Source: Sphingobacteriales bacterium (GTDB lineage Bacteria; Bacteroidota; Bacteroidia; Chitinophagales; JADJOU01). From it: 32,906 nucleotides of DNA. The stretch covers positions 1 to 32,906 of the forward strand of contig JAJTHM010000020.1 of assembly GCA_021297855.1 (NCBI GenBank), written 5' to 3'. The position numbers were made by a program, and so were the translations under genes. How positions within the stretch are numbered: position 1 is the stretch's first letter; every line of letters begins with the position of its first letter. A model generated the notes under the pieces. The model saw only the letters and a list, made by a program, of their open reading frames with translations. It did no database searches and was not told where the DNA came from. Shown piece after piece: positions 18,011-27,815 of this stretch.

Positions 18011-18787
18011 ATGAAGGTAGTAATATTTGCAGGAGGACTAGGCACACGACTTATGGAAGAGACCGAGGCGCGACCAAAGCCTATGGTCGAGATTGGCGGG
18101 AAACCTATCCTATGGCATATTATGAAAATTTATTCACATTATGGCTTCAATGATTTTGTAATTTGTTTAGGCTATAAACAAGCCTTCATAAAAGAATTTT
18201 TCATAAATTACTATTACAATAATTCAGATATTACTATTGACCTAGAGAGAAATCAAACAGAGGTACATCTTTCAAGTCAAGAGAAATTCAAAGTGACCTT
18301 AGTCGATACTGGAGTCAACACCAATACTGCTGGACGACTAAAAAGAGTCCAAAAATATATTGGTAATTCTAGATTCATGCTAACCTATGGAGATGGGGTA
18401 TCTGATATTAATATCCCACAACTCATTCAATTTCATGAAGAAAAAGGGAGGTTGGTTACATTAACTTCTATTCAAGTTCCTGGAAAATTTGGTAATATAG
18501 AATCAGACAATAATGGATTAGTTACTCAATTTGTTGAAAAACCGCAGGGAGATGGAGTATGGATCAATGGGGGTTTTTTTGTTCTAGAACCCGAGGTTTT
18601 CAATTATTTGGATGGCAATATGGATGATATTCAATGGGAGAAAAAACCACTAATAGCCATAGCAAATGATGGTCAGTTAGTATCATTCAAGCATCATGGT
18701 TTTTGGAAGTGTATGGATGCCTTGAGGGATAAGATAGAATTAGAAGAACTTTGGAATTCAGGAAAGGCAGAATGGAAGGTTTGGTAA
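18011..18787 (+). CDS. rfbF: Glucose-1-phosphate cytidylyltransferase RfbF
   Basis: This enzyme makes CDP-D-glucose from CTP and glucose-1-phosphate, the first committed step to CDP-3,6-dideoxyhexoses. The 258-residue protein has the nucleotidyltransferase signature FAGGLGTRL at 6-14 followed by ARPKPMVEIGGKPI (19-32), and the metal-binding YGDGVSD near 125-131. The segments VPGKFGN, FVEKPQGDGVWINGGFFVL and HHGFWKCMDALRD match the RfbF/DdhA family throughout. Length is standard. It is the first gene of a nine-gene operon and overlaps rfbG by 16 nt, using the preferred rfbG start. Cytoplasmic. Confidence 0.95.
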   Translation: MKVVIFAGGLGTRLMEETEARPKPMVEIGGKPILWHIMKIYSHYGFNDFVICLGYKQAFIKEFFINYYYNNSDITIDLERNQTEVHLSSQEKFKVTLVDTGVNTNTAGRLKRVQKYIGNSRFMLTYGDGVSDINIPQLIQFHEEKGRLVTLTSIQVPGKFGNIESDNNGLVTQFVEKPQGDGVWINGGFFVLEPEVFNYLDGNMDDIQWEKKPLIAIANDGQLVSFKHHGFWKCMDALRDKIELEELWNSGKAEWKVW

Positions 18788-19833
18788 AAGCGTTTAAAGG
18801 AAAAAAAGTGTTTCTCACTGGGCATACTGGCTTTAAAGGCTCTTGGATGCTCCAATGGCTTCACTCGTTGGGAGCTATAGTTAAAGGCTATGCTTTGGTC
18901 CCTGAAAATATACAAGATTTATATCCTACCATAAATGGGGATACCCTATGCGAATCTGTCATCGCTGACATTCGTGATTTAAATAAATTAAAATCGGAAA
19001 TAATATCCTTTGAACCTGATTTTATTTTTCATTTGGCTGCTCAGCCATTAGTTCGTTACTCATATCAATTTCCTGTAGAAACTTTTGAAGTAAATGTCAT
19101 GGGAACAGCTAATGTGCTTGAAGCTATGCGCTATCTCCAGAAGCCTGTCATTGGAGTTATGATCACTACGGATAAAGTTTATGAAAATAAGGAATGGCAT
19201 TATCCATATCGAGAAGTAGATAGACTAGGCGGTTATGACCCATATAGTGCAAGTAAAGCATCTGCTGAATTAGTGATTAGTTCTTATAGAAATAGTTTTT
19301 TCAATGCCTCTAACTTCGCTGAGCACAAGAAATCCATTGCTTCGGCTCGGGCTGGCAATGTAATTGGAGGAGGCGACTGGGCTAAAGACAGAATTGTACC
19401 CGATATAGTGAGAGCTTTATCCAATGGAAATGATATAGAAGTAAGAAACCCGAATGCAGTCAGACCATGGCAACATGTGCTTGAACCGATTGGTGGTTAT
19501 TTACAACTCGCTATGCGAATGGCTCAAAATAGAGAGAAGTACAATGAAAGTTGGAATTTCGGACCAAATGCAGATGATACCTATGTAGTAGAAGATTTAG
19601 TAAAGATATCTATTGATATATGGGGAAAGGGCAGCTATAAGAAACCAGAGTTAAAAGATGAACTTCATGAGGCGGGTCTTTTAAAATTGGATATACAAAA
19701 AAGTATTCAAGAATTAAAATGGAAGCCAAAATTGAATTCCATTGAAGCCATAAAATGGACTTTAGATTATTACAAGTCGAACGATCCAATTTTAACAATG
19801 AAAAAACAAATTAGCGATTATCAAAATTTATGA
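18772..19833 (+). CDS. rfbG: CDP-glucose 4,6-dehydratase RfbG
   Basis: An SDR-superfamily enzyme that converts CDP-glucose to CDP-4-keto-6-deoxy-glucose using bound NAD. The 353-residue protein has the Rossmann motif [13 protein letters not shown] near the N-terminus, ITTDKVYEN with the catalytic Thr-Asp-Lys region at about 131-138, and the YSASK catalytic Tyr158/Lys162. The frame extends to a TTG at 18751, but the ATG at 18772 has AGGAAAGG just upstream and gives the normal family N-terminus, so I take it as the start. It overlaps rfbF by 16 nt and is overlapped in turn by rfbH, so the three steps are translationally coupled. Confidence 0.94.
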
Positions 19834-21137
19834 TGGAGTTTAAAAATTTTAGTGGTGATTTAGCAGAATCATTAAGAGAGATTGCCTCTAAGCGAGTCAA
19901 ACAGGAAATTGTAGCTGGGGAAGATTATATCCCAGTCACTGGTAAAGTATTAGATGCGGATGATTTACTAATTGGAGTGGATGCTACGTTAGATGGTTGG
20001 TTGACGACAGGTCGATTTGGGCCTAAATTTGAGCGTGCTTTTGCTAAGTATTTTGGGTCTCTTACTTCATTGCTTGTCAATTCAGGCTCTTCTGCCAATC
20101 TTACCGCTTTTTACACCTTAACTTCACCCAAACTAGGGGATGGTCAAATTAAACCAGGCGATGAAGTCATCACCGTGGCTGCAGGATTTCCCACGACGGT
20201 CAATCCAATGATTCAGTATGGATGTGTTCCCGTTTTTATTGATGTAGAATTGGGCACTTATAATATTATAGTCGATAGAATCGAAGAAGCAATATCTTCA
20301 AAAACAAAAGCCATAATGATCGCCCATGCCTTAGGGAATCCATTTAATCTGGAAAAGGTAATGGAAATCGCAAGAAAGTATAATCTATGGGTAATAGAAG
20401 ACGATTGTGATTCATTAGGGGCAACCTATAATGGACAGAAAACCGGCACATTTGGTGATTTAGCCACTGTATCATTCTATCCAGCACATCATATCACTAT
20501 GGGTGAGGGTGGAGCAGTGTTAGTTAACAATAAAGACCTCGTTATGATAGCCAAGAGCTTTAGAGACTGGGGGCGTGACTGCTACTGCGAGCCAGGATGT
20601 GATAATACGTGTAAAAAAAGATTTGAATGGCAGCTAGGAGATTTGCCCTATGGTTATGATCATAAATATACATACTCTCATATAGGATTTAATCTCAAAG
20701 TCACAGACATGCAAGCGGCTATTGGATTGAGCCAACTAAATAAGGCTGATTTATTCGTAGAAAAGCGAAGAGAAAATCATGCCTTGTTAAATGATAGATT
20801 GAAGGAATTTGAAGAGCATTTTATCTTGCATAAAGCGACAGAAAATTCCAATCCAAGTTGGTTTGGCAATATGATAACTTTAAGAGAAGATAGTCCGCTA
20901 AAAAGAAATGAGTTAGTTCAGTATTTAGAACAAAATAAAATTGGAACTAGATTATTTTTTGCAGGAAATTTATTAAAACAACCAGCCTATTCTAATATAA
21001 ATAAACGGATAGTCGGCGATTTAACCAATACCGATATTATTATGAATAGTAGCTTCTGGCTGGGTGTATGGCCTGGATTAAATGCGAGTCATTATGATTA
21101 TATGATTGACATTTTAGGAAGATTTATAAAGAAGTAA
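19830..21137 (+). CDS. rfbH: CDP-4-keto-6-deoxy-glucose 3-dehydrase RfbH (DdhC/E1)
   Basis: This enzyme uses PMP (pyridoxamine phosphate) and a [2Fe-2S] cluster to remove the C3 hydroxyl of CDP-4-keto-6-deoxyglucose, giving the CDP-3,6-dideoxy-4-keto sugar after reduction. The 435-residue protein has the aspartate-aminotransferase fold, but the usual PLP lysine is replaced: the motif reads YPAHHIT with His220 and His221, as in the family. Cys193, Cys251, Cys253 and Cys261 reproduce exactly the C-X57-C-X1-C-X7-C cluster pattern of the Yersinia enzyme. The start codon ATG overlaps the rfbG stop (ATGA). The dedicated reductase partner (RfbI/DdhD, E3) is not in this window, so a general ferredoxin or flavodoxin system may serve. 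Confidence 0.96.
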
Positions 21138-21138
21138 A

Positions 21139-22047
21139 TTGAATAAATTATTTATAACAGGTGGCACAGGTTTTTTTGGAAAGAATATACTTAAATCTAT
21201 TCTTGAAGACGAAATTTGGATAAATTTTTTTTCTGAGATAGTTGTATTGACAAGAAATTCTAATAAGTTTTTAAAAGAATTTCCAGAATTCAAATCTGAT
21301 AAAATTTTCTTTATAGAAGAAGATGTTCGATTTTTTAAAAGTAATAGAACTGATTTTGAATATATTTTACATTTAGCTACCGATGCTAGTAAAGATTTGA
21401 ATGATCATCATCCATTGGAAATGATAGATGTCATTCTCAATGGTACTAAAAATATACTTGAGTTTGCTGATAAACAAAAAGAGTTGAAAAAACTTATTTT
21501 TGCTAGCTCAGGCGCAGTTTATGGACAGATTCCTTTAGAAAATCATGGCGTCAGGGAGGAAGAGCGATTTGATCTAGATTTTAATAATCCCATCAATGCA
21601 TATGCTCAAGCGAAAAGAACGGCAGAGATGATGTGCAGCATTTATTATGAACGTAAAAAAATGCCCCTCATTATCGCACGAGGATTTGCATTTATTGGAG
21701 CGTATTTATCAGAAAGTGCACATTTTGCTATTAAAAATTTTGAAAGACAAGCCAAAGAGACGGGTAAAATTATCATTCAATCGGATGGGAATGCGAAACG
21801 CTCCTATATGAAAGGAGATGAATTAGCAAAAATTTTATTATCTTTACTTACCGTAAAATCTAATTTTTATTATATCTATAATATAGGTTCTGATGAGGCA
21901 AAAACACTTAAAGAATGGGCGCACTGGATCGCGGATAAAAGCGGTGAAGTGGTCGTAGAAATTTTGAATAATAATACAGAAGGATATAGTGCTGGTCATA
22001 ATTATATTCCCAATGTAGATAGAATGAAACAAGAAGTAGAATTTTGA
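21139..22047 (+). CDS. NAD(P)-dependent sugar epimerase/reductase (extended SDR), TTG start
   Basis: A 302-residue SDR with the dinucleotide motif FITGGTGFFG at 5-14, FASSGAVYG at 121-129 with the catalytic Ser, and YAQAK with Tyr155 and Lys159. No ATG fits: the conserved first strand follows directly after a TTG at 21139, 1 nt after the rfbH stop, so TTG is the likely start, reached by coupled translation. By position it acts on the RfbH product or on the branched product made by the next gene. Candidate reactions are 4-keto reduction (like abequose/paratose synthases), epimerisation, or reduction of the side-chain ketone as proposed for YerF. It is a distant paralogue of the SDR at 25822-26862; the two share AFIG and RSYxxGxxxA segments. 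Substrate is not decided by sequence. Confidence 0.85.
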   Translation: MNKLFITGGTGFFGKNILKSILEDEIWINFFSEIVVLTRNSNKFLKEFPEFKSDKIFFIEEDVRFFKSNRTDFEYILHLATDASKDLNDHHPLEMIDVILNGTKNILEFADKQKELKKLIFASSGAVYGQIPLENHGVREEERFDLDFNNPINAYAQAKRTAEMMCSIYYERKKMPLIIARGFAFIGAYLSESAHFAIKNFERQAKETGKIIIQSDGNAKRSYMKGDELAKILLSLLTVKSNFYYIYNIGSDEAKTLKEWAHWIADKSGEVVVEILNNNTEGYSAGHNYIPNVDRMKQEVEF

Positions 22048-22058
22048 TAAGTTAATTT

Positions 22059-23888
22059 ATGATTAAAGGAAGTGACTTAGTCGCAAATTTTTTAGAAGAA
22101 AAAAAAATCAAAGTTGTTTTTGGAATAATTGGTGCAGGCAATGCTCATATTTTTGACTCTATTCAAACTAAAGGGTACACTAAAATTGTTTGTGTGCATC
22201 ATGAGCAAGCTGCTTGTATGGCTATGCAGACCTATTATAGAGCTAGTGGAAATTTATCTGCAGCTATCTTAACTACTGGTGCGGGCTCTACCAATGGAAT
22301 AACGGGTGTCGTGAGTGCTTGGGCCGATTCTATTCCTGGATTAATAATTTCAGGCAATGAACATTCTAAATATATTGAGTTACATAAAAACATAAGAATG
22401 TGGGGAGTTCAAGGGTATGATAGTTCGCTAATGGTAGAAAAAGTAACTAAATATTCTACAAGAGTATTGGATGTAAAAAAAATTACAGAAGAATTAAGTG
22501 CAGCATATGAAATTGCATTGCAGGGTCGTAAAGGTCCTTGCTGGATAGATATCCCCATGAATATTCAGTCAGAAAAGGTTAATGAAGAAGAAATAATTAA
22601 ATTTTCTAAAGAGAAATTACCAAAATTAAATCTTGATTTAGATTCTGATTTAATTGAAAATATAGATAAACTATTGTCAGATTTATCATCTTCAAAAAGA
22701 CCACTATTTTGGTTTGGAAATGGAGTCCGATTATCCAATGCTAATTCCTTACTAGAGCCACTATTAAATCAAATTAATATTCCAACTATATTATCATGGG
22801 CTGGGATAGATATGATTGACTCTAATCACCCATTGGTGTTCGGTAGAGCGGGTACATATGGTCAGCGTTGTGCAAATTTAGTTTTACAAAATTGTGATTT
22901 ACTCATATGTGTAGGGACAAGATTATCCATTTCTCAAATAGGATATGATATTACCGAATTAGCAAGAGATGCTAAAATCTTTGTAGTAGATATTGATAAA
23001 TCTGAATTAGAAAAATATAAAGATAGATATAGTTTAAGTATAAATGCTGATGCTAAAGATTTTCTAACTGGTTTAACTTTCAAATCAAATAATTACGGAG
23101 AAAGTTTCGAAGAATGGATAAAACTATGTAATCATTATAGAACTAAATATCCTTGGGTAAGCGAATGGGAACATCCTGATTTGGATGGGTTTATTAATTC
23201 ATATACTTTTATTGATAAGTTGAATCATTACTTAAAAAAAGACCAAATAATAGTTACAGATATGGGTACAGCCCTACTGTCAGGACATCAGGTTTTAAGA
23301 ATAAAACAAGGGCAGAGATTAATGACATCAACGGGTTTAGGCGAAATGGGTTATGGATTACCAGCTGCTATTGGAGCATCCTTTGGAATAGATAATGGAG
23401 AAGTGATGTGTTTAAACTGCGATGGGGGTATGATGATGAATCTTCAAGAATTACAGACGGTAGTTCATTATAAATTACCAATTAAAATATTTATATTCAA
23501 TAATGATGGTTATTTGATGATAAAGCATACTCAGACTGCATTATTTAACGGTAGAAGAGCTGGGGTAGATGCGGAGTCCGGGGTTTCTTGTCCTGATTAT
23601 AGTGCTTTAGCTAAGGCATTTGGATTAAAGGCATTTCAAATTAGAACTTGGGACGATTTTGATCAAGTTATCCCGCAAGTCCAAGAATATAACGGACCAT
23701 TAATTTGTGAAGTATTTATGCATCCAAATCAATTGTTCGTACCTAAATTAAGTTTAGCCATTCAAAGTGATGGCACATTAATTTCACCTCCATTAGAAGA
23801 TTTGTCTCCGTTTATTTCCAGAGAAGAATTAAAAAATAATATGATCGGGGGATTACATGTCAAATCAGAATTGATTGAAGTAAAATAG
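22059..23888 (+). CDS. ThDP-dependent acetolactate-synthase-like enzyme (YerE-like sugar ketolase)
   Basis: A 609-residue enzyme with the three domains of acetolactate synthase: PYR domain (1-170) with the ThDP-activating Glu49 in VHHEQAA, central domain (190-340) and PP domain with the metal/ThDP motif CDGG near 454-457 and NN at 481-482 (the usual Gly of GDG is Cys). In a CDP-3,6-dideoxy-sugar operon the known precedent is YerE of Yersinia, which decarboxylates pyruvate and adds an acetyl unit to C4 of CDP-3,6-dideoxy-4-keto-hexose in yersiniose A synthesis. There is no regulatory small subunit and no ilv gene nearby, so branched-chain amino-acid synthesis is unlikely. Whether the donor is pyruvate or the larger 4-hydroxy-2-oxovalerate made by the next two genes is open. 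FAD binding is expected by family but not visible from motifs. Confidence 0.85.
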   Translation: MIKGSDLVANFLEEKKIKVVFGIIGAGNAHIFDSIQTKGYTKIVCVHHEQAACMAMQTYYRASGNLSAAILTTGAGSTNGITGVVSAWADSIPGLIISGNEHSKYIELHKNIRMWGVQGYDSSLMVEKVTKYSTRVLDVKKITEELSAAYEIALQGRKGPCWIDIPMNIQSEKVNEEEIIKFSKEKLPKLNLDLDSDLIENIDKLLSDLSSSKRPLFWFGNGVRLSNANSLLEPLLNQINIPTILSWAGIDMIDSNHPLVFGRAGTYGQRCANLVLQNCDLLICVGTRLSISQIGYDITELARDAKIFVVDIDKSELEKYKDRYSLSINADAKDFLTGLTFKSNNYGESFEEWIKLCNHYRTKYPWVSEWEHPDLDGFINSYTFIDKLNHYLKKDQIIVTDMGTALLSGHQVLRIKQGQRLMTSTGLGEMGYGLPAAIGASFGIDNGEVMCLNCDGGMMMNLQELQTVVHYKLPIKIFIFNNDGYLMIKHTQTALFNGRRAGVDAESGVSCPDYSALAKAFGLKAFQIRTWDDFDQVIPQVQEYNGPLICEVFMHPNQLFVPKLSLAIQSDGTLISPPLEDLSPFISREELKNNMIGGLHVKSELIEVK

Positions 23889-23895
23889 ATAAGAA

Positions 23896-24765
23896 ATGAT
23901 CAAAAAAAGAGTCGCCATCATTGGGAGTGGCAATATTGGAACTGATTTATTAATAAAAATACAACGCTCTAGTTATTTAGAGTGCGTTTTATTTATTGGA
24001 CGAAATTTGTCATCTCCAGGTATGGCCAAAGCGATATCATTGGGTATAAAAGTTTCTGATGAGAGCATTCAAGCCATTATTAAAGATCCTGATTGTTGTG
24101 ATATCGTATTTGATGCGACATCAGCTAAAGATGCAATTCATCATTGGGAAATATTAGAAAAATTAGGGAAAATAGTTATAGACATGACTCCTGCAAAGCT
24201 AGGAGGCCTATGTATACCTGCGGTCAATATGGCTGAATCAATTATACTTAAAAATATAAATATGATCACCTGCGGTGGTCAAGCATCTATCCCAATCGCA
24301 TATTTGATAGGGAAATTACACAAAGATATAGAATATATAGAGGTTGTATCTAGCATAGCTTCTAAAAGTGCTGGGCCAGCAACAAGATTAAATCTTGATG
24401 AATATATCGAGACGACTGAATTAGGTGTTAAACTATTTTCAAATGCAAAAAATGCTAAAGCAATTTTAAACTTAAATCCTGCAGAACCATGTATTGACAT
24501 GCAGACGACAATTTTTGCAAAACTAGATAATCCAAAAATTGATGAGTTAAAAATTGAAGTAGACAAAATGATTACTTCAATAAAAAAATACGTACCAGGA
24601 TATCAACTTTTGGTCGAACCTATCTATGAAAATGGAAAAATAGTAGTCATGATTAAGGTTCAGGGATTGGGAGATTATTTGCCTAAATATGCGGGTAACT
24701 TAGATATAATTAATTGTGCGGCAGTAGCTGTTGCTGAGCAGTTTGCTATAAATAATCAATCTTAA
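23896..24765 (+). CDS. Acylating acetaldehyde dehydrogenase (DmpF/MhpF type)
   Basis: This family interconverts acetaldehyde, CoA and NAD with acetyl-CoA and NADH. The 289-residue protein begins with the Rossmann motif AIIGSGNIGTDL (7-18), has the catalytic Cys126 in MITCGGQASIP, the KSAGPATRLNLDEY segment (157-170) and NPAEPCIDMQTT (194-205) near the dimer/partner interface. Length is slightly shorter than the usual 300-315. As in meta-cleavage pathways it is immediately followed by its aldolase partner, and the pair should form a channelling complex. No aromatic ring-cleavage gene is present. I infer that here it reduces acetyl-CoA to acetaldehyde for the aldolase, or removes acetaldehyde from a side reaction. 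Confidence 0.9.
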   Translation: MIKKRVAIIGSGNIGTDLLIKIQRSSYLECVLFIGRNLSSPGMAKAISLGIKVSDESIQAIIKDPDCCDIVFDATSAKDAIHHWEILEKLGKIVIDMTPAKLGGLCIPAVNMAESIILKNINMITCGGQASIPIAYLIGKLHKDIEYIEVVSSIASKSAGPATRLNLDEYIETTELGVKLFSNAKNAKAILNLNPAEPCIDMQTTIFAKLDNPKIDELKIEVDKMITSIKKYVPGYQLLVEPIYENGKIVVMIKVQGLGDYLPKYAGNLDIINCAAVAVAEQFAINNQS

Positions 24766-24799
24766 ACAATTTAATTTATAGACTATTAAGGTAAGCAAA

Positions 24800-25807
24800 A
24801 TGAAAAATATATTAATCAGTGATCCAACATTGAGAGATGGCAATCATGCCGTTTCTCATAAATTGAATTTAAAACAAATTGCTATCTATTGCGAAGCTGC
24901 GAATTATGCAAATGTGCCTATAGTAGAAGTAGGTCATGGTAATGGACTTGGAGCATCATCGCTACAAGTTGGTCTTAGCGATGTTACAGATAGACAAATG
25001 CTAGAAACGGCCAAAAAACACTTAACTAAATCCAAGTTAGGAATACATTGTATTCCTGGATTTGCTACTATAAAAAGAGACTTAGCTAATGCGATTGATA
25101 TAGGAGTAGATGTTATACGTGTGGCATCACACTGTACAGAAGCAGATATTACACAGCGACATCTTGGCTACATAAGAGAGCGTGGTAAAGAGGCATATGG
25201 AGTATTGATGATGAGTCATATGGCTCCAGCTAATCTGCTTTTAGAAGAGGCTCAAAAAATGGAAAATTATGGAGCAGAAGGAATCATAATAATGGACTCT
25301 GCAGGCGCATATTTACCTAGTGACGTAACTGAAAAAATATCAACCTTGGTTGAAGGATTAGATATACCAGTTGGATTTCATGCTCATAATAATCTGGGTT
25401 TAGCAATAGCAAACTCTATAACCGCACTAGAATCAGGTGCAAAGATTTTAGATGGAACGGCTAGAGGATTTGGGGCTGGTGCAGGAAATGCACAACTTGA
25501 GGTACTCGTAGCAGTATTAATAAAAATGGGATACAAAACAGGTATAGATTTATATAATATATTAGATGCTAGCGATATCGCCGAAAAAGAAATAATGCCT
25601 TCAATACCTGTAATCAAATCTGAAAGTATAGTCAGTGGACTTGCAGGTGTTTTTTCAGGATTTTCAAAACATGTAAAAAGAATTTCAGAAGAGTTTAAAA
25701 TAGATCAACGTGATATTTATTTTGAACTAGGAAAACGGAGAGTTGTCGCAGGACAAGAAGATATTATTATCGAAGTAGCAATGGAAATTTTAAAGAATAA
25801 AAAGTAA
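24800..25807 (+). CDS. 4-hydroxy-2-oxovalerate aldolase (DmpG/MhpE type)
   Basis: A class II pyruvate aldolase of the HMGL-like family that cleaves or forms 4-hydroxy-2-oxovalerate from pyruvate and acetaldehyde. The 335-residue protein has the metal and substrate motif DPTLRDGNHA at 8-17, GHGNGLGASS at 45-54, the HAHNN metal ligands His194 and His196, and GFGAGAGNAQLE near 223-234. The C-terminal domain that contacts the dehydrogenase partner is present, so the enzyme is full length. It lies 34 nt after the dehydrogenase. In this sugar operon a synthetic role is attractive: pyruvate plus an aldehyde would give a hydroxy-2-keto acid donor for the ThDP enzyme. The direction cannot be read from sequence. 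Confidence 0.92.
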   Translation: MKNILISDPTLRDGNHAVSHKLNLKQIAIYCEAANYANVPIVEVGHGNGLGASSLQVGLSDVTDRQMLETAKKHLTKSKLGIHCIPGFATIKRDLANAIDIGVDVIRVASHCTEADITQRHLGYIRERGKEAYGVLMMSHMAPANLLLEEAQKMENYGAEGIIIMDSAGAYLPSDVTEKISTLVEGLDIPVGFHAHNNLGLAIANSITALESGAKILDGTARGFGAGAGNAQLEVLVAVLIKMGYKTGIDLYNILDASDIAEKEIMPSIPVIKSESIVSGLAGVFSGFSKHVKRISEEFKIDQRDIYFELGKRRVVAGQEDIIIEVAMEILKNKK

Positions 25808-25821
25808 ACTTGGATTAAACG

Positions 25822-26862
25822 ATGAAAGAGCAATTAATACTAATTCAAAAAGATTGTGAAAAATCTTGCGCAGATATTTCATCATTAAATAGTCTTAGAA
25901 ACCAATCGATTTTAATAACAGGAGGTACTGGATTTGTAGGGAAATGGATAGCAGAGATGATATGCTATCTAAATGAAAAAGAAAATTTTAATATTAAGTT
26001 ATATTTGCTTTCTCGTAATGTAGAATTATTTAAAACCGAAGTTCCACATTTGGCAAAAAAATCTTATGTTAATCTAATCGAGCAGGATGTTAGAAATATT
26101 TATGAAATACCTAATGATATCCAATGGGTTGTAAATGCAGCAGGTTCTCCTGATTCAAAAGAACATTCCTCACAACCAATAAAGACAATAGAAACATTTA
26201 CTAAAGGAACAACATCTTTATTTGAATCATGTTTTAGACTTCCAGATTTAAAAAAAATTGTTCATTTAAGCTCACATCAAGTGTATGGAAAGATAAATTC
26301 TGAAAAACCAATTGATGAAAAACAATTTGGTTCATTAGATGCTTATAATTTAAATTCTATATATGCAGAATCAAAACGATTAACTGAGACCTATTGTGCT
26401 ATATATAGAAATCAATATAGAATGCCGATCATAATTGCTAGGCCTTTTGCTTTTATCGGTCCTTATCAGAGTTTAAATAAACATTGGGCTGTAAATAGTT
26501 TTATCAGAGATGGGTTATTTGGGGATAGTATTCGCATCTTAGGAGATGGAAATACAGTAAGAAGCTATTTGTATGGCAGTGATATGGCCTACTGGATTTT
26601 GTCAATGTTATCAAACGGGATAAGTGGAGAGTGTTATAATCTAGGTAGTTCTGAAAGAATTAATTTAATAGAATTGGCTAATAAGATAGTAAATTTACTA
26701 AATAGAAACATTAAAATTAATTCAAAATCTTCAAAAGAATCTTATGATAATACGTCAATAATAGTGCCAGATTTAAGTAAAGTATTTAATCAATTAAAAA
26801 TAGAAGTAAATATAGATATAGATTTTGCTTTAATGAGAACTATTCAATGGAATAAAAAATAG
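25822..26862 (+). CDS. NAD(P)-dependent sugar epimerase/reductase (extended SDR), second copy
   Basis: A 346-residue SDR with an N-terminal extension of about 28 residues before the motif LITGGTGFVG (31-40). The catalytic Ser lies in HLSSHQVYG (148-156) and the pair Tyr181/Lys185 in YAESK. IARPFAFIGPYQ and GNTVRSYLYGSDMA are the usual nucleotide-sugar SDR segments. It starts 14 nt after the aldolase and precedes the GT2 gene by 14 nt. Together with the SDR at 21139-22047 it gives the operon two ketone-handling enzymes, which fits a product with both a ring ketone and a side-chain ketone, or a reductase plus an epimerase. Base composition is extreme: two consecutive sampled lines (26641-26760) contain about 21% G+C, pointing to transfer. 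Confidence 0.85.
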   Translation: MKEQLILIQKDCEKSCADISSLNSLRNQSILITGGTGFVGKWIAEMICYLNEKENFNIKLYLLSRNVELFKTEVPHLAKKSYVNLIEQDVRNIYEIPNDIQWVVNAAGSPDSKEHSSQPIKTIETFTKGTTSLFESCFRLPDLKKIVHLSSHQVYGKINSEKPIDEKQFGSLDAYNLNSIYAESKRLTETYCAIYRNQYRMPIIIARPFAFIGPYQSLNKHWAVNSFIRDGLFGDSIRILGDGNTVRSYLYGSDMAYWILSMLSNGISGECYNLGSSERINLIELANKIVNLLNRNIKINSKSSKESYDNTSIIVPDLSKVFNQLKIEVNIDIDFALMRTIQWNKK

Positions 26863-26876
26863 ATAATATTTATTAA

Positions 26877-27815
26877 ATGTCAAAACCACTTATTTCAATA
26901 CTGACTCCTGCCTATAATGAATCTGAAAATATTCAACAATTAATTATAGAAATATCTTCAGAGATATTGATTTATAAAGATAAATATGATTTTGAAATTA
27001 TCGTAATTGATAATTGCTCGACTGATAATACAGTTCAATTGGTCAAAGAAATTTGTACTACTGACAAACAAGTAAAACTTATAGTAAATTCACGTAATTT
27101 TGGTCATATAAAGTCTCCATTTTATGGATTGTTACAAGCAAATGGTGATTCAGTAATCTTGATGGCTTCAGATTTTCAAGATCCAATTCATTTAATTCAT
27201 CAGCATATTCAAAATTGGGAAAATGGATTTTTAATGTCACTTGCTATTAAGAATAATGCAGAAGAAAATTGGTTATTTTATAATATTCGAAAATTGTTTT
27301 ATAAAACCTTAAGTAGATTATCAGATACAAAACTGATAGAAAACTTTACTGGTTCTGGATTATATGATAGAAAAATAATTGAAATATTGAAAAAGGTAGA
27401 TGATCCTTATCCTTATTTTAGAGGAATTGTTTCCGAAATAGGATTTGAAAAAGCGATTGTTTTTTTCAACCAACCAACGAGAAAAAGAGGTTTTACTAAA
27501 AATAATTTTTACACATTGTATGATATTGGAATGCTTGGTATAACAAGTTATTCTAAAATACCACTTAGATTAGCAACTATGCTAGGCTTTATTATGTCTG
27601 GGTTGAGTTTAATTGTGGCTATTATTTATTTATGCATGAAATTAACTTTATGGAATAATTTTCCTGCTGGCAATGCGCCGACAGTCATTGGGTTATTTTT
27701 CTTTGCCTCAGTTCAACTTTTATTTATTGGTATACTTGGAGAATATATTGGTTCGATACATACCCTAGTGCAAAAAAGACCTATAGTCATAGAAAAAGAA
27801 AGAATAAATTTCTAA
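26877..27815 (+). CDS. GT2 polyprenyl-phosphate glycosyltransferase (DPM1/ArnC/GtrB-like)
   Basis: A 312-residue family 2 glycosyltransferase with the GT-A domain motifs ILTPAYNESENI (8-19), VIDNCSTDNT (43-52), SRNFGHIKS (72-80) and DFQDP (99-103), followed by TGSGLYDRKII and two membrane helices near 232-255 and 268-292. This layout matches enzymes that put one sugar on polyprenyl phosphate at the cytoplasmic side. It is the only glycosyltransferase in the operon and its last gene, so it is the natural user of the CDP-sugar. The closest functional analogues use UDP- or GDP-sugars, so use of a CDP-sugar would be unusual. The divergent GT-C enzyme at 15919-17925 could take the lipid-linked product. 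Confidence 0.88.
   Translation: MSKPLISILTPAYNESENIQQLIIEISSEILIYKDKYDFEIIVIDNCSTDNTVQLVKEICTTDKQVKLIVNSRNFGHIKSPFYGLLQANGDSVILMASDFQDPIHLIHQHIQNWENGFLMSLAIKNNAEENWLFYNIRKLFYKTLSRLSDTKLIENFTGSGLYDRKIIEILKKVDDPYPYFRGIVSEIGFEKAIVFFNQPTRKRGFTKNNFYTLYDIGMLGITSYSKIPLRLATMLGFIMSGLSLIVAIIYLCMKLTLWNNFPAGNAPTVIGLFFFASVQLLFIGILGEYIGSIHTLVQKRPIVIEKERINF

Follow-up and report, generated by a model that had tools for sequence, protein, structure and literature searches.

ErwE of Pectobacterium atrosepticum is described as joining 4-hydroxy-2-oxo acids to CDP-4-keto-3,6-dideoxyglucose to give erwiniose, and YerE of Yersinia pseudotuberculosis as using pyruvate directly (PMC12247030), so that two carbons are added (yersiniose A). 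JanthE, another enzyme of the YerE-like type, uses 4-hydroxy-2-oxovalerate in vitro, and its physiological substrate was stated to be unknown (PMC12188165). Among the titles and abstracts that we searched, no paper linked a 4-hydroxy-2-oxovalerate aldolase to O-antigen or branched sugars, and parts of what follows may already be proposed in the ErwE and JanthE literature.

The locus and its ThDP enzyme

The stretch of DNA analyzed here (the window, positions 1-32,906) contains an operon-like run of genes on the + strand from 18011 to 27815, in the order rfbF-rfbG-rfbH-SDR-ThDP-DmpF-DmpG-SDR-GT, with junctions that are short or overlapping. The features are as follows.

18011..18787, + strand: rfbF, glucose-1-phosphate cytidylyltransferase, leading to CDP-glucose (TIGR02623, 380 bits, cut-off 300)
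18751..19833, + strand: rfbG, CDP-glucose 4,6-dehydratase (TIGR02622, 468 bits, cut-off 278)
19830..21137, + strand: rfbH, C3-dehydrase leading to CDP-4-keto-3,6-dideoxyglucose, the predicted acceptor (NF011936, 702 bits, cut-off 423)
21139..22047, + strand: first extended SDR, putative sugar reductase or epimerase of uncertain role (Epimerase family; GGTGFFG and YAQAK motifs)
22059..23888, + strand: JanthE-type ThDP-dependent carboligase, predicted sugar-branching enzyme, 609 aa (best solved match 8rph)
23418..23426, + strand: CDG motif Cys454-Asp455-Gly456 of the ThDP-binding site, in place of the usual GDG (sequence alignment)
23896..24765, + strand: DmpF-type acylating acetaldehyde dehydrogenase, 289 aa, predicted to convert acetyl-CoA to acetaldehyde (TIGR03215, 373.8 bits, cut-off 282.25)
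24001..24006, + strand: DmpF Arg36-Asn37, end of strand 2 of the Rossmann fold, Ile-Asp in catabolic enzymes (alignment)
24800..25807, + strand: DmpG-type class II pyruvate aldolase, 335 aa, predicted maker of 4-hydroxy-2-oxovalerate (TIGR03217, 384.4 bits, cut-off 286)
25046..25048, + strand: codon of DmpG His83, equivalent to DmpG Leu88 and BphI Leu87 (alignment)
25652..25654, + strand: codon of DmpG Phe285, equivalent to DmpG Tyr291 and BphI Tyr290 (alignment)
25822..26862, + strand: second extended SDR, most likely the branch-ketone reductase by prediction (GGTGFVG and YAESK motifs)
26877..27815, + strand: glycosyltransferase of family GT2, with the completed sugar or its glycan as the likely substrate (PF00535)

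RfbF, RfbG and RfbH all exceed the curated cut-offs that define equivalogs of the CDP-3,6-dideoxyhexose pathway. The DmpF/DmpG pair reported in the preliminary description occupies exactly 23896-25807 as two intact ORFs, both above their family cut-offs. Its placement between a ThDP enzyme and an SDR in a nucleotide-sugar operon is likewise confirmed by the gene order and by the short gaps, which measure 7 bases between the ThDP gene and DmpF, 34 between DmpF and DmpG, and 14 between DmpG and the second SDR. DmpG also carries the communication domain PF07836 (92.3 bits, cut-off 27). At the equivalent places of other cassettes the first SDR is poorly conserved (27-38% identity); the second is 50-59% identical in the cassettes of Bacteroidota and 35-43% identical in most others, and a homologue of the GT2 gene is present in many of the loci.

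The best solved match of the ThDP enzyme is 8rph, at 796 bits compared with 247 for the next. Because five residues discussed in the JanthE paper align with 8rph at a constant offset of one, and because the CDG motif is shared, this structure is identified, by alignment, as JanthE. The window enzyme is 58% identical to JanthE over its full length, and CDG is common to both. Among 72 aligned ThDP sequences, CDG is found in 71 and the catalytic Glu49 in all 72. Lys563, which corresponds to JanthE Lys567, is conserved as well and is a candidate for binding the 4-hydroxyl of 4-hydroxy-2-oxovalerate. The motif, the catalytic Glu and the full-length similarity place the window enzyme with the JanthE-type (CDG) YerE-like carboligases, for which carboligation activity is predicted. 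The ThDP enzyme of Rugamonas rivuli is 98.7% identical to JanthE, and its gene is followed directly by DmpF and then DmpG.

Linkage and genome context

To find further loci of this type, we searched a collection of genomes from 84,980 species, using an alignment of three ThDP sequences, and obtained 60 JanthE-type loci. These span seven phyla: Bacteroidota, Pseudomonadota, Hydrogenedentota, Gemmatimonadota, Spirochaetota, Armatimonadota and Actinomycetota. Within the fetched flanks, DmpF is present in 57 of the 60 and DmpF together with DmpG in 55, and rfbF, rfbG and rfbH are present in 48, 47 and 50, respectively. The loci that do not have both DmpF and DmpG are three at contig ends (L061, L071 and L077) and two real exceptions, L045 and L046. 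L045 is the only one whose ThDP enzyme has GDG instead of CDG. L046 has a CDG ThDP gene with no DmpFG in its contig, and this locus counts against a donor-making role for the pair. Four GDG-type relatives in rfbFGH clusters of Gammaproteobacteria (L142, L143, L144 and L146) have no DmpFG; with L045, this gives DmpFG beside 0 of 5 GDG-motif ThDP genes, in a comparison of CDG with GDG loci that are related to one another.

Three of these GDG clusters carry other candidate 2-oxo-acid makers for other branched sugars: an HpaI-type aldolase beside the ThDP gene in L142, and a NeuB-type synthase in L143 and L144. Because these genes stand in place of DmpFG, they suggest that each branching ThDP enzyme may travel with its own 2-oxo-acid maker.

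A search of plasmids for JanthE-type ThDP genes found none at E 1e-80. The cassette is kept in two small genomes of about 1.5-1.6 Mb (L147 and L148) and occurs in Candidatus Aquirickettsiella (L072), and its retention in these genomes suggests that the glycan matters for host-associated life. In addition, nine IMG/VR contigs (L078-L086) carry the ThDP, DmpF and DmpG genes, with an RfbH-like gene in all nine. The two RfbH-like proteins that were scanned, from L079 and L085, are both above the RfbH cut-off; the same two contigs also encode RmlB-like 4,6-dehydratases that score below theirs, and glycosyltransferases are among the genes checked in L079. Of the eight viral records searched, one, the 327-kb L080, gave a terminase match, so that a viral origin is supported for this record and is putative for the other contigs. 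The match (G800:C1:21974-23224) reads through one in-frame TGA, which could be explained by recoding, by an intervening element or by an error in the sequence. From the genes on the nine contigs, phage-classed DNA may make a branched nucleotide sugar.

We also asked what catabolic setting the window's own genome offers. Across the whole 3.1 Mb genome there was no match to catechol-2,3-dioxygenase (TIGR03211) and none to the DmpE-type 2-oxopent-4-enoate hydratase (TIGR03220). The earlier observation that ring-cleavage and hydratase genes are absent therefore extends from the window to the genome, and these searches gave no sign that the rest of an aromatic meta-cleavage pathway, with its dioxygenase and hydratase, lies in the operon or elsewhere. 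The window DmpG is the sole DmpG of its genome, and DmpG is an uncommon gene in the phylum, occurring in 6 of 395 genomes, this one included. Of the five others, L016, which belongs to a different family within the class, shares the cassette; its ThDP, DmpF and DmpG proteins are 71-81% identical to those of the window. Three have pairs that are 40-47% identical and lie outside any such cassette, and the fifth (30% identical) has its gene in an apparently unrelated sugar cluster. Among 35 other cassette genomes searched, DmpE was absent from 25.

Phylogeny and clade-specific residues

A maximum-likelihood tree of 70 DmpGs, rooted with a very distant outgroup, united the cassette proteins, those of the viral contigs and the biosynthetic DmpGs of Streptomyces and Roseobacter in one group with a support of 100/99. 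All catabolic DmpGs fell outside this group, and L091 formed a long branch beside it; the catabolic references were vetted by their annotated neighbors, and some of these contexts are weaker, for example that of L099. In three cassette genomes a further copy of DmpG lies close to a hydratase, and these copies were placed among the catabolic DmpGs. The DmpF tree agrees with the DmpG tree, and in neither did the proteins group inside the catabolic clades. The preliminary description had proposed that a recruited pair would form a separate clade found only beside rfbH and the ThDP gene. The separate clade is there in the DmpG tree, and in 55 of the 60 loci the pair adjoins the JanthE-type ThDP gene, usually with rfbFGH; the clade's restriction to rfbH clusters did not hold, as it also includes the Streptomyces and Roseobacter pairs. 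We consider it plausible from the tree that the ancestor of the cassette pair was catabolic, and only plausible because the root rests on a long branch and a very distant outgroup.

Plasmid-borne members of the group lie in settings of their own. Four Streptomyces plasmids (L007, L010, L011 and L012) have biosynthetic-looking clusters, with KASIII and ACP in three and a CoA-ester-lyase and MaoC in three. On Leisingera and Phaeobacter plasmids (L008 and L009), cassette-clade DmpGF is found in a conserved cluster that also encodes ATP-grasp proteins, a PLP enzyme and a protein that binds FAD/NAD(P).

The window DmpF scores as a member of TIGR03215 and retains the catalytic Cys126. The acidic residue that typically follows Rossmann strand 2 in catabolic DmpF is missing from it, Arg36-Asn37 replacing Ile-Asp. 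This change is general in the cassettes: the GID motif at the end of strand 2 is GR(N/H) in 58 of 58 DmpFs (GRH once), that is, Arg in 58/58 and Asn in 57/58, compared with Asp in 18 of 19 catabolic enzymes. In Rossmann folds, Asp at this place commonly binds the NAD ribose, and Arg commonly accompanies NADP. Because the change loses the Asp and gains an Arg, we predict that cassette DmpF uses NADPH, which would fit the reductive direction.

In the alignment, Arg12, Asp13, His16, His194 and His196 of the window DmpG correspond to Arg17, Asp18, His21, His200 and His202 of DmpG, and the likeness to the solved structure 1nvm locates the residues. The active sites had been described as intact on the basis of Cys126, Asp8, His194 and His196. 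This stands for Cys126 and the two histidines, but Asp8 is ruled out as a metal ligand, since it aligns with DmpG Asp13; the ligand, which we take to be DmpG Asp18, is Asp13 of the window protein. That description had also overlooked the altered DmpF motif and two substitutions in DmpG, Leu88 to His and Tyr291 to Phe, and it had recognized neither the JanthE-type nature of the ThDP partner nor the probable use of the aldolase product as its donor. The Leu88 position is His in 57 of 57 cassette members and Leu in 19 of 19 catabolic ones, and the Tyr291 position is Phe in all 57 and Tyr in all 19. In a separate sample of Gammaproteobacteria, three cassette-type proteins have His and Phe, and 24 others, classed by sequence alone, have Tyr together with Leu (one Ile).

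These positions are Leu87 and Tyr290 of BphI, with a one-residue offset taken from the catalytic residues. In BphI, which gives the 4S product, Y290F relaxes stereocontrol, and the double mutants L87N/Y290F and L87W/Y290F take the 4R enantiomer exclusively, a switch in specificity from 4S to 4R (PMC3962088; PMC4012138). The window DmpG is a family member by score and does not have the Leu/Tyr stereocontrol pair, so membership does not imply a 4S product. Because both positions that were switched in the laboratory are changed here, we predict that cassette DmpG probably makes 4R-4-hydroxy-2-oxovalerate, the mirror image of the catabolic product. This claim is weaker than that of a donor-making role, because the substitution here is His where the BphI residues tested were Asn and Trp, and because Y290F alone only relaxes control. 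As a derivative of D-gulo-octose, erwiniose would have an R center at C7. Should the 4R prediction prove correct, natural aldolases of opposite stereochemistry are available in the family.

Proposed pathway and comparison with known systems

From the gene content, the conserved linkage, the separate phylogeny, the changed residues and the lack of two key catabolic genes, all observed here, we consider it very probable that DmpF and DmpG together supply the donor for the synthesis of a branched sugar, and we infer the reactions, with their direction, stereochemistry and cofactor, as follows. RfbF, RfbG and RfbH would make CDP-4-keto-3,6-dideoxyglucose. DmpF would reduce acetyl-CoA to acetaldehyde, probably with NADPH, and pass it to DmpG, which would join it to pyruvate and so form 4-hydroxy-2-oxovalerate, probably as the 4R enantiomer; a point against this is that with the homologue BphI, aldol formation from acetaldehyde is inefficient in vitro (PMC3962088). 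The JanthE-type enzyme would decarboxylate the DmpG product and transfer the resulting 3-hydroxybutyryl unit to the sugar's C4 ketone, and an SDR, most likely that at 25822-26862, would reduce the new branch ketone. The predicted product is a CDP-3,6-dideoxy-4-C-(1,3-dihydroxybutyl)hexose of the erwiniose type, which a glycosyltransferase would then use.

We weighed three other explanations of the pair. That JanthE also takes pyruvate (PMC12188165), and that DmpF-type enzymes are established to be able to oxidize acetaldehyde, would allow the ThDP enzyme to add a two-carbon acetyl branch from pyruvate while DmpF and DmpG only recycle leaked acetaldehyde to acetyl-CoA or trap it. We think this improbable, because DmpF alone would suffice for such salvage, whereas 55 of the 57 loci on uncut contigs also have DmpG; the GDG-type relatives manage in the same kind of cluster without DmpFG, and the fixed changes in the DmpG active site point to selection on its product. 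It is also unlikely, if a little less so, that the pair uses propionyl-CoA, a 3-hydroxyacyl-CoA or the like to build a branch that is longer or further functionalized. DmpG-type aldolases do accept longer aldehydes, under the control of Leu87 and Leu89 in BphI, where L89A favors long aldehydes (PMC3962088), and ErwE takes C4-C6 hydroxy-oxo acids (PMC12247030); the equivalent of Leu89, however, is still bulky in the cassettes (Ile in 53 and Met in 4 of 57 DmpGs).

Lastly, an ordinary catabolic pair might adjoin the sugar genes by chance or by recent insertion, as the family is best known from meta-cleavage operons and some cassette genomes also carry DmpE hydratases. This we find scarcely credible and reject on the linkage, the phylogeny and the genome searches: the arrangement is repeated across phyla, both proteins form a separate clade with residues of its own, this genome has neither the hydratase nor the ring-cleavage dioxygenase, and the additional, catabolic copies of other genomes fall in a different part of the tree. 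The same three lines of evidence support the original suggestion that the pair was recruited to sugar synthesis.

On a broader picture built from these comparisons we are evenly balanced between acceptance and doubt. Cassette DmpG would be a natural stereo-inverted class II pyruvate aldolase, altered at the positions mutated in the laboratory; the pair, reversed and NADPH-shifted, would feed 4(R)-hydroxy-2-oxovalerate to the CDG ThDP enzyme; each subfamily of ThDP enzymes that branch sugars may have a 2-oxo-acid maker of its own (DmpFG, HpaI-type or NeuB-type); and viral-classed DNA would also carry the DmpFG version. For annotation, a 4-hydroxy-2-oxovalerate aldolase call alone does not indicate aromatic degradation, and in the cassette clade it more likely marks surface-glycan synthesis. 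JanthE is under development as a biocatalyst, and its conserved DmpFG partner names a candidate natural substrate.

Compared with DmpFG, BphI-BphJ and MhpEF, the cassette pair is alike in domain make-up, metal ligands, catalytic Arg and His, dehydrogenase Cys and communication domain. It differs in the changes Leu88 to His, Tyr291 to Phe and GID to GR(N/H), in lying in a sugar rather than a ring-cleavage operon, and in its separate clade. The closest relatives that we found outside the cassettes are the biosynthetic DmpFG pairs of Streptomyces and Roseobacter (53-57% DmpG identity), whose neighbors are also non-catabolic; these pairs adjoin KASIII/ACP/MaoC or ATP-grasp/aminotransferase genes, with no ThDP or rfb gene nearby. 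YerE is similar in its type of acceptor, CDP-3,6-dideoxy-4-keto-D-glucose, whose C4 ketone is likewise the site of ThDP chemistry, but the donor of YerE is pyruvate and its branch has two carbons, and the GDG-type clusters examined here are without DmpFG. With the erwiniose system, and its YerE-like ThDP enzyme ErwE, we claim a likeness at the level of chemistry only; the window enzyme is a member of the CDG (JanthE) branch. For JanthE itself (Janthinobacterium sp. HH01; PDB 8rph-8rpj), whose physiological donor was left open in the published work, the conserved DmpFG linkage described here proposes one.
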